Below are positions 329 to 42,879 of a stretch of 42,959 nucleotides of DNA, piece after piece. The DNA is from a virus, in IMG/VR virus record IMGVR_UViG_3300006353_000002, positions 1 through 42,959 of that record; one strand, given 5' to 3'. The position numbers and the translations under genes were made by a program. A model generated the notes under the pieces. That model was not told where the DNA came from. It made no database searches and saw nothing but the letters and a program-made list of their open reading frames with translations. Within the stretch, counting starts at the first letter, position 1; the number at the start of each line of letters is the position of its first letter.

Positions 329-603
329 GGTATGCGTGGGAAGTTCCTTATATTTCTCACATTGGCTGTTTTCTGCGGGTTTCCGGCCTAATATTTTTCT
401 TACATGGACCTTACGAGATTAGGTTCCATCACTCTTATATTTAAGATCATAAAACTCATTTATATTCAATGACATAAGATTCATGGCTGGAAAATGTAAG
501 GCGATGTGAGACTGTAAGTCTCATATTTTTATCACGTTATATCACATATTTAAGTGAGCATTTGGCGGGATGTAAGGAATATAAGACTTTTCCCACGCAC
601 CCC
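329..603. other. AT-rich island with iterated motif and flanking inverted repeats
   Basis: This roughly 275-bp stretch is strongly AT-rich in an otherwise G+C-rich phage. It is bounded by an imperfect inverted repeat of about 31 bp (332-362 and 570-600), both arms starting from TGCGTGGGAA read inward. Inside, CTTAYAT occurs at 347, 399 and 434, and its complement ATRTAAG at 494, 570 and 579: three copies pointing one way on the left and three the other way on the right. A 7-bp hairpin TGAGACT-GTA-AGTCTCA lies at 507-523. No open reading frame here looks real. It could be a replication origin, a regulator or partition site, or a MITE-like remnant. Confidence 0.55.
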
Positions 604-11471: not shown

Positions 11472-12368
11472 ATGCCCGCCCTTCCCGACACCGGCCTGAT
11501 GCTCGACCTGTCGCGCCTGCCCGCGCCCGCCGTGCTCGCGCCGCTGGATTTCGAGGCGATCCTGGGCGAGCGCCTCACAGATTTCCAGACCCGCTACCCT
11601 CAGTTTGACACCTTGCTGGAGAGTGATCCTGCGGTGAAGCTGCAGCAGGTCGATGCCTGGCGCGAACTGCTCACCCGCGCTGCAATCAACGATGCCGCGC
11701 GCGGTGTTATGCTGGCATTTGCCACTGGCTCCGACCTCGATCACCTTGCCGCATTCTACGGCGTTTCCCGCCGGGTGATCGAACCCGCTACCGAAACCAC
11801 GCCCGAAGTTCTGGAAAGTGACGCCGAACTTCGCGCCCGCATCCAGATCGCCCCTGAAACGCTGCCGCATGCCGGGGTTACCGGTGGTTTTTACCGCGCT
11901 CGCGCACTCGCCGCCGTGCCCGCGTTGAAAGATGTCGCCGCGATCAAACGCGGCAATGGCCGGGTCGATCTCGTGCTGCTTTCGCGCGAGGGCGATGGCA
12001 CCGTCAGTCCTGAGCAGCTTGCCACGGTCTCCGCGCTGTTCGCCGATGGCGAGACCGTGCAGTTGACCGATATTCTCTCGGTCAGCGCTGCGGCTATTAC
12101 CCCGTTCGCAGCCGAAATTCACCTTACAGTCAAACGGGGCCCTGATCCCCAGGCCGTGCGATCAGCCGCTGAAGCCGCCGTCCGCGCCTATTGCGCCGAT
12201 CGTCACCGGATCGGAGCGCCGGTCTATGTCCAGATGCTTGCGGCCGTCGCCTCGGTCGGCGGGGTCGAGCACGCCTCGGTTGTCTGGCCCATTGGCGATA
12301 TAGATCCCGGCACAGCCGGTGCAGCCTGGCTGTCGTCCGTCACGCTCACCACCGGTCTGACGGCATGA
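11472..12368 (+). CDS. J: Baseplate assembly protein J (P2 gpJ-like)
   Basis: The 298-residue protein is a Baseplate_J-like wedge protein (P2 gpJ is 302 residues), which forms the wedge of the contractile-tail baseplate. It contains ATGSDLDHLAAFYGVSRRVI, LRARIQIAPETLPHAGVTGGFYRARALAA and RIGAPVYVQMLAAVASVGGVEH in family order. It follows S directly, whereas in P2 the V and W genes come first; here those lie at 22957-23942. A 73-bp gap precedes it, holding a GGCGTTA element like the one in the divergent late promoter region. Confidence 0.93.
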   Translation: MPALPDTGLMLDLSRLPAPAVLAPLDFEAILGERLTDFQTRYPQFDTLLESDPAVKLQQVDAWRELLTRAAINDAARGVMLAFATGSDLDHLAAFYGVSRRVIEPATETTPEVLESDAELRARIQIAPETLPHAGVTGGFYRARALAAVPALKDVAAIKRGNGRVDLVLLSREGDGTVSPEQLATVSALFADGETVQLTDILSVSAAAITPFAAEIHLTVKRGPDPQAVRSAAEAAVRAYCADRHRIGAPVYVQMLAAVASVGGVEHASVVWPIGDIDPGTAGAAWLSSVTLTTGLTA

Positions 12369-16562: not shown

Positions 16563-17588
16563 ATGCTGCGCATTCACTCCGGCCCTGCATTTGTTCCCGC
16601 TCTCGCCGCGCTGGGCGACGGCCTCGGGGGGGCGCGGGCGACGCGGCTCTACCAAAAGCAGCCGGACGGACAGTGGATTACCGACCTGCCTCTCGCAGGC
16701 AGCCTGTCGGCCACTTCGCGCAGCATTGAAGGCCCCGGTGCCAACCAGACTACGGCCAGCCTCTCCGCCATGGCCTCTGGCGGCCAGGGCGCGCTGACGC
16801 TGTCGTGGGCCAAGCTGTCGGGCGGCGCGATCACCGCCCAGTCCATCGGCCCGCTTACCACCGCTTTCAACGCCGCTGGCCTCGCCGAGGGTGAGTCGCG
16901 CACGGCGATCTTCCGTGCCACTGTTACCGATCAGGCTCCAGACAGCGTAATCGCCGGCGAAGTGGAGGTAAGCATCACCCGCTGGTCATTGCCGCACCTT
17001 TCCGCCCCCGCCTCTCTGACCGCATCGACAACGCTGGCAACCTTCGACACGCCCCCTCTCACAGCAACTCGCACTGGCGGCCTCGCCCCATTCACCCTGG
17101 CGTGGAGCAAACGTTCGGGCGGCGCGATCACAGCGCTCTCGCCAGCGGCGCTGACCACGGCCTTTCGCGCTTCCGGCCTCACCACCGGGGAAGTGCGGAC
17201 CGCCGTGTTTGATCTCACCGTCACGGACGCCCGGGGCCAGACCGATATCGCGACAGTGAACGTGCAGATCACGCGTCGATCGCCAGTGACGGTAACGGTC
17301 TTGCCTGGCTTCATTACCGAGAAGGTGGAAGGCAACGCAATTGAGCCGACAAGCTACACCACGCGGACGGCTGCCTCAGCTTCCCCTTCCGGCGGTCTCG
17401 CACCCTATAGCTTCGCATGGACCCTCGGACCGGGCAGCAACCTCGAACTGGTCACCCCCGCCGCACAATCCACACGCTTCCGACAAACTGCCCCGAATAT
17501 CGGCAATTTTGCCACAGCACGCTGCCAGGTCACCGATTCGCTCGGCGCGACGGCGCTGAGCAACCCCGTCACCGTGAACCTAGTCTAG
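16563..17588 (+). CDS. Tail-associated protein with repeated Ig/PKD-like domains
   Basis: The 341-residue protein contains three related beta-sandwich-like units of roughly 85 residues. Each has an Ala/Ser-rich start, a GG(L/Q)xPF-type turn, W(S/A)K-SGGAI in the first two copies and W(T)LGPGS in the third, and a closing (T)VTD strand. The pattern recalls PKD/Ig-like decoration domains on phage tails. These often bind host surface polysaccharide weakly. Exact family membership is inference. Confidence 0.7.
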
Positions 17589-32509: not shown

Positions 32510-35212
32510 TTGGACCATACTTTCGCCTCGAAAATCGTCGACACGCTCAAGGCGAAATACCGCTTCAGGAAGGCGAACGCGCGCTGGCTGCAGGAAGGCC
32601 AATGCCCCGATTGCGGCGAGTGGGAACTGTTCACTGCCGCCATCGATCCCAAGATCGTCCGGTGCGGGCGCAGCAACAATTGCGCTTTCGAGATCAGCGT
32701 GCGCGCCGCCCTGCCCGATCTGTTCGAAGACTGGTCGGGCCGCTTCAAGCAGACCGAAGAAGACCCGAACGCCGCCGCCGACGCCTACCTTCGCTATGAG
32801 CGCGGGCTTGATATTTCCGGGCTGCGCGGGGCTTTCGCCCAGGAATACATAAAGGGCGGGGATGCTCGCGATGGCGGCCTGTTCGGCTCGGCCACCGTCC
32901 GCTTTCCCCTGCCCGGCGGTTCATGGTGGGAACGCATCATCGATCGCCCCGGCCGCTTCGGCAAAAAGGCGCGCTTCAAGTTCGGCGGAACCCACGGCGG
33001 CCACTGCTGGGCCCACCCGGAAGACAGTTTTCTAGAACTCGCCCAGGCGGCGGAAATATGGATCGCCGAAGGTATTTTCGACGCGCTCGCGCTGCGCCAG
33101 AACTTTGAGCGGCTTCATAAGGCTGGCGGGATCAAACGCGCCGCCGTCTCGGCGATGAGTGTCAATGTCTGGCCGGAACATTTCCTCGAAGGCCTGAAAC
33201 AGGCGCTCGCCGGATCCAAGAACCGCCCGCTGATCGTCTTCGCTTTCGATGGCGGCAAGGCCGGTGTCGACTACACCCGCAAATTTGTCGCCCGCGCCCG
33301 GGCTGATGGCTGGCTCGCCGCCGCCGCCCAACTTCGCCCCGATGGAGACGGCGACAAGCTTGATTGGAACGACCTGCACCTGCGCCAGCTTGAATGGCGT
33401 GGCGAAGACGACGAGGCTCCACTCGGCGAGAAGAAGCTCGAGGAATATCGCTGGAACGGCGACATTACCACCGCGCTCACAGCCCGCGAAAAGGCTTGGC
33501 TGATCTATCGCCGCCGCAAGCTGCAGGCCTTCGACTTCCGCTTTGACAACCGCATCTGGTGGGCGCGCTACAAAGCCGACGCCGAAGACCCGGCCGGCGG
33601 CGACATCACTCTCGAAGAGATCGCCAACTGCGCCTTCCGCATTCTTTACCGCGAACGCGACGAAGCCGCCGACGAATCGAACTTCTTCCTCGAAATGGCC
33701 TTCCCGGGCGGCATGCCCGGCGCAAAGGCGCGCTTCTCTGCGGCATGCTGCGCGGCCAGCGGCGAATTCAAGAAGCGGCTCTTCGCCTTCAACGGCATGT
33801 GGCTTGGCAGCCAGGAGCAACTTGACAGGCTGATGCGCAGCCAGACCCGCCGCCTCAAGACCGTCGAGCCGCTTCATTTCACCGGCTACAGCCCGGCCCA
33901 CAAGGCCTGGGTGCTGGGCGATCTCGCCGTTCACGATGGCCGCGTCATCAAGCTGGGGCCGGAGAAATACTTCGATTTCGGCAAGAGCGCGGTCAAGTTG
34001 CGCACTGACGAGCGCATGCTCTCCATCACGCATTCGCCCGACTGGGCTCATTTTGACTGGCTGGCGGACCTGTGGGCCGCATGGGGGCCGGAAGGGCTGA
34101 TCGCCCTGTCCTTCTTCACCCTGTCGCTATTTTCCGTGCAGATCCGCGAAGAGCATGCATCGCTCGGATTCCTGGAAATCCAGGGCGAGCCGGGATCCGG
34201 CAAAACCACCCTGGTCGAGTTCCTGTGGAAACTGCTGGGGCGCTCCGGTTACGAGGGCTTCGACCCCAACAAGGCGACCAGCGCGGCCATCGCCCGCAAC
34301 TTCATGAAGGTCTCGGGACTGCCGGTTGGCTTAATCGAAAGCGGGCGCGACCCCGAAAAGGTCAGCCACTTCCGCCAGTTCGATTTCGCAGAGCTGCTCA
34401 CCCTGTTCAATGGCCGCAGCCCCCGATCGACCGGCGTCAAGAATTCGGGGACGGAAACCTTCGAGCCGCCGTTCCTTGGCGCGATCTACCTTATGCAAAA
34501 CGATTCAATCGACGCGATGCCGGCGGTGCTGGAACGCATCATGTCGATAAGGATCGACAAGGCACGGTGGACTGCCGAGACCAGCGCGGCGGCAAAGCGG
34601 ATCGAGCGTTGGGATGCCGAACCTGCCTCGGGCTGGATACTGCACGCTACGCGCCGCGCAGCCGCCTGGTGGGATGCCTTTACCACCAGCTTCGCTCGCC
34701 ACGACGCTGGCATGCCGAAGCGCCACTCGGACCTGCACAACGCCCGCATCGTCAAATGCCATGCCCAGCTGGCCGCCGGGCTCGACGCACTGACCACCTT
34801 GATCCCCGAACAGCGTCTGCCGAAAGCATGGCTGGAGCAGACCCACGCGACGATCGGCGCCCTCGCGATCGAGCGCCAGCTTGCCAGCGGTTCCGATCAC
34901 CCGGTGGTGCTGCGCTTCTGGGACATCGTCGATCACCTTCTGGCCAACGAGACCAACGATCAGTGGGGCGAAGGCCGCTCGCTCAACCAGAGCCGCAAGC
35001 CCGAGGAACTCTACGCCATCAACCTGGTCGAATTCGAACGGCGCGCCCGCATGGCCAACTTGTCGCCCCCGGCTGACACCGACCTCAAGAAGCACCTGAA
35101 AAGCAGCCGCGCCCGCAAGTTCATCGCCGCGAAGAGCGTCAACAACCCCGCTGATCGCGGCGTCCACTGCTGGGTCTTCGATAATCCCAACAAACCCGGG
35201 CCGCTGATTTAG
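32510..35212 (+). CDS. DNA primase-helicase (replication protein)
   Basis: The 900-residue protein combines three parts. The first is an N-terminal zinc-binding module (Cys32, Cys35, Cys52, Cys58). The second is a Toprim primase core with IAEGIFDALAL (about residue 185) and VFAFDGGKAG (about residue 243). The third is a C-terminal helicase with Walker A GEPGSGKTT (about residue 560). It should prime and unwind DNA during phage replication. This is unlike P2 gpA, a rolling-circle nickase, and closer in logic to P4 alpha or T7 gp4. Start is TTG 32510 with GAGGA about nine bases upstream; no ATG nearby gives the zinc motif. Confidence 0.9.
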   Translation: MDHTFASKIVDTLKAKYRFRKANARWLQEGQCPDCGEWELFTAAIDPKIVRCGRSNNCAFEISVRAALPDLFEDWSGRFKQTEEDPNAAADAYLRYERGLDISGLRGAFAQEYIKGGDARDGGLFGSATVRFPLPGGSWWERIIDRPGRFGKKARFKFGGTHGGHCWAHPEDSFLELAQAAEIWIAEGIFDALALRQNFERLHKAGGIKRAAVSAMSVNVWPEHFLEGLKQALAGSKNRPLIVFAFDGGKAGVDYTRKFVARARADGWLAAAAQLRPDGDGDKLDWNDLHLRQLEWRGEDDEAPLGEKKLEEYRWNGDITTALTAREKAWLIYRRRKLQAFDFRFDNRIWWARYKADAEDPAGGDITLEEIANCAFRILYRERDEAADESNFFLEMAFPGGMPGAKARFSAACCAASGEFKKRLFAFNGMWLGSQEQLDRLMRSQTRRLKTVEPLHFTGYSPAHKAWVLGDLAVHDGRVIKLGPEKYFDFGKSAVKLRTDERMLSITHSPDWAHFDWLADLWAAWGPEGLIALSFFTLSLFSVQIREEHASLGFLEIQGEPGSGKTTLVEFLWKLLGRSGYEGFDPNKATSAAIARNFMKVSGLPVGLIESGRDPEKVSHFRQFDFAELLTLFNGRSPRSTGVKNSGTETFEPPFLGAIYLMQNDSIDAMPAVLERIMSIRIDKARWTAETSAAAKRIERWDAEPASGWILHATRRAAAWWDAFTTSFARHDAGMPKRHSDLHNARIVKCHAQLAAGLDALTTLIPEQRLPKAWLEQTHATIGALAIERQLASGSDHPVVLRFWDIVDHLLANETNDQWGEGRSLNQSRKPEELYAINLVEFERRARMANLSPPADTDLKKHLKSSRARKFIAAKSVNNPADRGVHCWVFDNPNKPGPLI

Positions 35213-41723: not shown

Positions 41724-42805
41724 ATGAGCACCTATCGCCACAAAGGCTCCCCCTTCTACCACTACGATTTCCAGTTCCGGGGGCAGCGGTTCCACGGTTC
41801 GACCGGCTGCGACACAAAGCGCGCCGCCGACGAATACGAGCGTCGCGAGCGCCAGAAGGCCGCCCTGCCGGAACAGCGCCGCCCGCCGATCACGCTAGAC
41901 GAAGCCTGCGGCCTTTATCAGGACCAGGTCGAGACCAAACCCAGCTGGCCCACCATCCGCTACATCATCAGCGCGCTGATCGCCGGGATCGGCAAGAACC
42001 GCCTGCTTTCCTCGATCACCCAGCGCGACCTTCAGGTCCACTTTGCCAGGCGGCGCGCCAAGCCGGACGGCAGCCGATCGAACGCCTCGATCAACCGCGA
42101 GGTAGAGAACGCCCGCGCGATCTGGCGGCTTGCCGATCGCACCCGCTACGATGTCGGCGAAATGCCCGACTGGAAGGCGCTACGGCTCAAGGTTCCGCGC
42201 ACTGCCCCTCGCGAGCTCGAGGCCGCCAGCGAGGAGGCCCGCCTGTTCCGGCATCTGCGCGAGGATGTCCGCGATGCCGTCGATTTCCTGCTCAAGTCCG
42301 GTTGGCGGCGCGCCGAAGTGCTGGCCTGCGCTGGGCCGATGTCAATTTCCCGGCCAAGACCGCCACTACGAAAATCAAGGGCGGCGACACCGTCGTCCGC
42401 CCCCTCACCACTGCCTTGGTCGAGCTCCTCGCCCGTCAGCCCCAGGCTGGGCCTTTCGTCTTCACTTATATCTGCCAGCAGAGCCGCGCCAAGCGCCGCA
42501 AGGGCGAGAGATATCCGCTGACCCCCACGGCACTGCGCAAGCCCTTCGCACAGGCCCTGAGCGCCGCCAAAATCGATAATTTCCGGATCCACGACCTGCG
42601 CCACACGCGCGGCACCCGGATAGTCCGCGCCACCGGCTCCCTCGCCGCCGCCAAGAAGGCCCTCGAGCACCGCTCATTGAGCACCACCCTGCGCTACGCC
42701 CACGTCCTCGACGAAGACGTCCGTAACGCCCTGGAAGCGAGCGACGCTGCACCAAAGTCCCGAAATAGTCCCGAAGTCCCGAAGACAAAAGGCAAGAAAG
42801 CCTAA
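41724..42805 (+). pseudogene. int: Tyrosine integrase, broken by a single-base frameshift
   Basis: The gene would encode about 360 residues. The N-terminal domain (MSTYRHKGSPFYHYDFQFRGQRFHGSTG) should bind arm sites, and the core-binding domain follows. The first catalytic Arg lies in SGWRRAEVLA (about residue 194). After GTG CTG GCC (ending 42326) the frame slips. Adding one C would restore the family's EVLALRWADVN, and the rest continues one frame back with the catalytic Lys (TKIKGG), HDLRHTRGT (HxxR), LEHRS (His) and Tyr in TTLRYAH. The upstream frame runs on to 42521 as nonsense. As it stands, the enzyme lacks its catalytic C terminus. The gene carries arm-type repeats in its 3' end and stops 35 bp before attR. 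Confidence 0.85.
42756..42784. repeat. Putative integrase arm-type sites, right arm
   Basis: AGTCCCGAAAT (42756), AGTCCCGA (42767) and AGTCCCGAAG (42775) lie head to tail within the last codons of int. The first 21 bp equal 218-238 next to attL. See the left arm entry for the interpretation. Confidence 0.6.
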
Positions 42806-42839: not shown

Positions 42840-42879
42840 GGTGTAAACGAGATGCTCTACCAACTGAGCTAACCGCCCG
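42840..42879. repeat. attR core, truncated 5' half of tRNA-Val
   Basis: This is the second copy of the 40-bp core. On the minus strand it contains tRNA-Val nucleotides 1-39 only, fused to phage DNA instead of the 3' half, so it is not a functional tRNA. The original chromosomal 5' flank of the tRNA gene lies to the right of it. Confidence 0.9.

Follow-up and report, generated by a model that had tools for sequence, protein, structure and literature searches.

Rolling-circle replication in phages is classically exemplified by P2. Direct iterons lie beside an AT-rich element at the origins of iteron plasmids (RepA) and of lambda-type replicons (O protein). The satellite P4 has two cis regions, its iteron reads GGTGAACA(G/A) (ori1/crr type I), and its alpha protein has a C-terminal winged helix. 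Alpha is a primase-helicase that reportedly recognizes its own origin (Ziegelin et al. 1993, cited by title in PMC8965321). In PICI origins, an AT-rich stretch is always flanked by two sets of iterons (PMC6092414), and the same paper reports a plasmid replication assay for EcCICFT073. The Rep helicases of SaPIs recognize short iterons by their C-terminus, the SaPI origin lies directly 3′ of the initiator gene, and the primases of SaPIbov1 and SaPI5 are of the AEP type (PMC7581432). A literature search retrieved no description of an origin in complete or primase-type P2-like phages, and the Smp131 paper describes cos and att, with no replication origin found in its searched passages (PMC3931495). 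The iteron-origin layout thus appears so far to have been described for phage satellites and not for P2-like phages, a provisional statement because the search covered few subscription journals.

The window analyzed here, i.e. the whole stretch of 42,959 nt (about 43 kb) of the IMG/VR record IMGVR_UViG_3300006353_000002, is a virus contig with a P2-like prophage. It carries PF05929, PF05125, PF05944, and PF03237, its portal/terminase genes (Q, P) diverge from the scaffold, capsid, and small terminase genes (O, N, M), and it has a P2-type cos, as in the Peduoviridae type. The prophage is integrated in tRNA-Val: the attL core (81-120), placed within this gene by the tRNA call, forms a perfect 40-bp repeat with 42840-42879, the two flanking the prophage. 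Because relatives of the portal protein sit in Altericroceibacterium, Novosphingobium, and Sphingobium records, the host is likely a sphingomonad. The cos region (737-804, strongest conservation at 769-794) is a GC-rich element that recurs downstream of portal/Dam genes in about 10 relatives and resembles the cos sequence quoted for P2 and Smp131 (PMC3931495). The predicted initiator, a Toprim primase-helicase (phrog_1139), is encoded at 32510-35212 on the plus strand. The integrase gene is spread over two frames, one matching the phrog_1 integrase (41724-42521) and one matching PF00589 positions 42-170 (42302-42805); the split within 41724-42805 is due to a prophage frameshift or to misassembly. 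An exact 21-bp repeat, AGTCCCGAAATAGTCCCGAAG, occurs at 218-238 and 42756-42776 on either side of the att cores and looks like integrase arm-type sites.

Between attL and cos, at 329-603, lies the putative replication origin, a non-coding island of 275 bp with a G+C content of 0.36 (record mean 0.63, s.d. 0.039). The lowest-G+C 275-bp segment of the record begins at 312, and the island contains no ORF of at least 70 aa, in agreement with the preliminary description of an AT-rich island that no listed gene explains in a G+C-rich phage. The mirrored motifs noted there, three CTTAYAT copies on the left (347, 399, and 434) and three ATRTAAG copies on the right (494, 570, and 579), were all located. 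As AT-rich DNA could by itself have produced such motifs, their frequency was compared with expectation: six copies were seen and 0.16 expected in the island, and none of 5,000 dinucleotide shuffles gave six. Six of the eight matches in the whole window fall inside the island, as do 11 of 17 matches to the looser 8-mer YCT(T/C/A)AY(A/C)T. An inverted repeat at the edges, first described as 31 bp long and near-perfect, does exist (328-362/570-604), but it measures 35 nt and is imperfect, with 77% complementarity and a perfect core of only 10 bp (TGCGTGGGAA/TTCCCACGCA). The internal hairpin described together with it was confirmed at 504-513/517-526 and is an inverted pair of the iteron itself (TCTCACAT/TCTCATAT).

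When read as 9-mers of the form YCTTAYATT, the repeats form two sets, mostly pointing inward and centered on two AT-rich 25-bp imperfect tandem repeats (435-484), a putative unwinding element. Behind a GGGAA cap, each set opens with two iterons in exact 9-bp register, at 346/355 in the left set and at 586/577 in the right. The caps are the perfect cores of the edge inverted repeat: TGCGTGGGAA at 333-342 on the plus strand, and at 590-599 a minus-strand copy that reads TTCCCACGCA on the plus strand. In the left array, the outer pair CCTTATATT TCTCACATT (346-363, plus strand) is followed on the same strand by CCTAATATT at 387, TCTTACATG at 398, and TCTTATATT at 433 (together 387-441). The right array consists, on the minus strand, of CCTTACATT (501-493) and TCTCACATC (511-503), both within 493-511, and of the outer pair TCTTATATT CCTTACATC (569-586); inside it, TCTCATATT (519-527, plus strand) has the reversed orientation and pairs with TCTCACATC in the hairpin. 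Beside the iterons, TTTCTGCGGGTTT (371-383) recurs near the island ends in about 10 related phages.

Islands of like design were found in other phages, although a DNA search with the island against phage and plasmid records gave no matches. The portal relative L021 has a homologous island in the corresponding position; its distance to cos is about 165 bp, as in the window, and identity is 79% over the left 99 bp. The left cap is kept there, while CTTAYAT is replaced by CTAACAT at every copy, and CCTAACATT is the counterpart of YCTTAYATT. Three further relatives (L010, L016, and L022) carry AT-rich islands at the matching position, each with other repeats, and islands are also present in the published phages of this primase family Dobby, Smp131, ESSI2_ev239, phi3, Halomonas 4908, and Mae-JY29, in phages 2F_1, UFJF_PfPro, and PaBSM, and in further IMG/VR contigs. 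One island was recognized per phage. (C)GGGAAA-type caps are present in most of the relatives' islands, which end in same-register iteron pairs (end iterons were identified by eye). The 9-bp repeat varies between phages, yet all copies within one island change in concert, and therefore we regard the iterons as sites of one changing protein. None of the 28 islands examined contained a DnaA box, and no IHF site was consistent across them. The central (A)TCAATGA element, located at 463-474 in the window within the tandem repeats, recurs in about two-thirds of the 28 islands and is compatible with an IHF site in some of them only.

The preliminary description had proposed that conservation confined to phages with this primase would support an origin, and such a distribution was observed. 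Of 21 P2-like phages that have the phrog_1139 primase and whose sequence extends 2.5 kb or more past the portal gene, 19 carry an island in that downstream region (counted partly by eye), and none was detected by the automatic score in 20 P2-like relatives lacking this primase. The automatic score compared the 7-mer repeat content of AT-rich segments with that of Markov shuffles (pass at z of at least 8). It was passed by 22 of 50 primase contigs versus 0 of 20 others, and, among contigs that satisfy the 2.5-kb requirement, by 14 of 21 versus 0 of 13 (p = 1.6 × 10−4); by-eye inspection was applied to primase contigs, so the fair comparison is given by these automatic figures. One of the 22 (G018) owes its score to dense short inverted repeats of another kind (16980-17360 of its contig C1), which were set aside as a different kind of sequence. 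Most primase contigs without an island stop short of the region, and many contigs end between portal and cos; in the complete primase phages G052 and G063, no island was recognized. An exact 8-mer scan of whole genomes had been swamped by repeats in coding regions and overlooked the degenerate iterons of the window. The detectors then used (7-mer, mismatch, and inverted-pair, restricted to AT-rich sequence) are not sensitive enough for degenerate islands, examples being the window and G009 islands, and the final count was therefore made partly by eye. The inverted-pair detector alone reached scores of up to 27 in controls and was kept out of the statistics. The primase and the P2 rolling-circle initiator gpA did not co-occur: among 40 P2-like contigs picked by portal similarity, 17 encoded the phrog_1139 primase, 16 gpA, and none both (p = 7 × 10−6). 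There was no gpA in 30 further primase contigs (0/30), and the gpA family PF05840 had 0 matches in the window.

A structural model of the window primase (pLDDT 88) has a zinc/Toprim primase part at the N-terminus and a helicase core; at the C-terminus is a unit (residues 834-891) whose strand-helix-helix-hairpin order corresponds to a winged-helix topology. Foldseek placed SCCmec Cch (5dgk, E = 5 × 10−15) and SaPIbov1 Rep (8tch, E = 5 × 10−12) on top, with TM-scores by query of 0.33-0.37, the primase part having no counterpart there. The isolated C-terminal model had no significant match in the PDB, and no P4 alpha structure was among the best 50 fold matches listed.

Comparing primase sequences with iterons in 25 phages that have both island and primase, we found residue 886 to be the best associated with iteron base 2 of 900 primase columns, which were the only phage protein columns covered. 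Its z of 7.5 exceeded the permutation 95% maximum of 5.4 over the 900 columns, in a permutation that ignores shared ancestry. The residue lies in the second wing strand, directly before a conserved CWVF. His accompanies C at base 2 in 11 of 12 cases (the exception, G065, has mixed repeats), Lys accompanies GGT, Arg accompanies CGT, and other residues occur with CAT and CGG. Two phages outside the discovery set, 2F_1 (Lys, GGTTAC) and UFJF_PfPro (Arg, TGTCAG), obey the same rule. A tree built without the C-terminus gave only four independent base-2 contrasts, of which three agree with residue 886 and one is silent. Judged from these sequence comparisons, residue 886 likely reads iteron base 2. 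Residues 81-140, which had appeared as a covarying region in a first domain test with 16 phages, were dropped as they were not confirmed with 25.

The island very probably serves the P2-like prophage as its vegetative replication origin, one of the iteron type on which the phage's primase-helicase would act. An iteron-like origin for this enzyme was among the possibilities named initially, and it is now strongly supported: the reading is built on the architecture of the island, its restriction to phages with the phrog_1139 primase in the sample, the concerted change of the iterons, the association of residue 886 with base 2, and the structural similarity of the primase model to Cch and SaPI Rep. 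Binding, melting, loading, and bidirectional (theta-type) replication at the island are what we infer from it. Copies of the primase-helicase would bind the 9-bp iterons via the C-terminal winged-helix domain, and the two inverted bound arrays would face the central AT-rich stretch, which the bound enzyme would melt near 435-484. It would then load itself as two helicase rings, with the fused Toprim domain making primers. Initiation would require neither DnaA nor a P2 gpA nick, and replication would proceed in both directions.

Island and primase fit the SaPI/PICI scheme, in which C-terminal iteron recognition and two iteron sets around an AT-rich stretch are known. The shared features are short, element-specific iterons in two sets that flank an AT-rich stretch (PMC6092414) and, as far as the model indicates, a predicted initiator helicase whose fold matches SaPIbov1 Rep and Cch, both self-loading initiator helicases. 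In contrast to SaPIs and PICIs, the carriers are complete P2-like phages, the primase fused to the helicase is of the Toprim (DnaG-like) type and not, as in SaPIbov1 and SaPI5, of the AEP type, and the island mostly lies beyond int and att, next to cos. It is directly 3′ of the primase gene only in phi3 and PaBSM; in most primase phages it is not adjacent to that gene, and in the window the two are far apart (329-603 and 32510-35212). By analogy, the island would work like a SaPI/PICI or P4 origin, but we do not class it as a SaPI/PICI replicon, since in the window the initiator gene is not immediately followed by the origin and the carrier is a complete phage. With P4, the system has in common a primase-helicase (here the predicted initiator), replication in a P2 context, and iterons close in form to the P4 repeat; it differs in having one recognized island per phage instead of two cis regions, and P4 is a satellite whereas the phage here is of the helper type. 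P2 is the same phage type by capsid, portal, terminase, and cos, but neither the window nor any primase phage tested encodes gpA. Iteron plasmids and lambda-type replicons likewise have iterons next to an AT-rich element. There, however, a non-helicase initiator has host DnaB loaded, whereas in the present phages the presumed initiator is a helicase in its own right, the 9-bp arrays are inverted, and DnaA boxes are absent from the 28 islands.

Among other explanations, the one that survives best is that a different phage protein (a repressor, a partition/centromere protein, or Cox) binds the array, which would then be a regulatory or segregation site traveling with the replication module. Inverted iteron arrays are typical of partition and operator sites too, and the island is near att and cos. 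Yet the occurrence of the island follows the primase and does not extend to gpA phages with shared structural genes, and the best-associated primase column falls in the predicted DNA-binding wing, in a comparison confined to primase columns. The centromere-like or regulator site of the preliminary description explains less than the origin reading, and we regard it as unlikely. Considerably less probable is a role in packaging, as a terminase-binding (cosB-like) region beside cos. The distance of about 165 bp to cos in the window and L021 would suit such a region, but primase-less relatives retain cos without an island, the island of phi3 and PaBSM adjoins the primase gene, and the repeats vary between phages.

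The two remaining proposals of the preliminary description have almost no probability left. A mobile element bounded by terminal inverted repeats, such as a MITE, would account for the long edge inverted repeat, the small size, and the lack of an ORF, but the record has no second copy, phage and plasmid records gave no matches, an exact-pattern scan with a 21-base end pattern had 0 matches in genome contigs (host chromosome not included), and in relatives the island occupies a single syntenic position and has different repeats. In viral contigs, the end pattern and a gapped inverted-repeat pattern had one match each, both attributed to chance, the latter being inside an unrelated ORF. A structured RNA is suggested by inverted repeats able to fold, but Rfam gave no match above noise in the island, the hairpin is accounted for as an inverted iteron pair, and arrays in both directions with concerted letter changes suit double-stranded binding sites.

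Taken with the origin reading, the distribution of islands suggests, for many P2-like phages across several proteobacterial groups, a mode of replication other than that of P2, from an apparently unmarked origin. Beyond this, we lean slightly towards a broader view, in which a large P2-like branch would have given up the rolling-circle mode of P2 and taken on a self-loading primase-helicase of the satellite type, together with a cognate iteron origin that diverges fast. The wing code, with residue 886 reading iteron base 2, would set origin specificity and thereby define replication-compatibility groups among co-resident prophages and satellites.

Two side observations concern the recorded hosts of primase phages. 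Bacillus phage ZY1 (OR820920) is P2-like and recorded for Bacillus pumilus; its primase has a C-terminus that strongly resembles the one of Halomonas phage 4908, but no island was found in its linear record, whose ends, like the recorded host, merit a second look. In Microcystis phage Mae-JY29, the island (12240-12320) is almost identical to that of L010/G004, and the cos core is tandemly duplicated. The named host of Mae-JY29 is a cyanobacterium, whereas its kin are sphingomonad phages, and its true host may be an associated bacterium.
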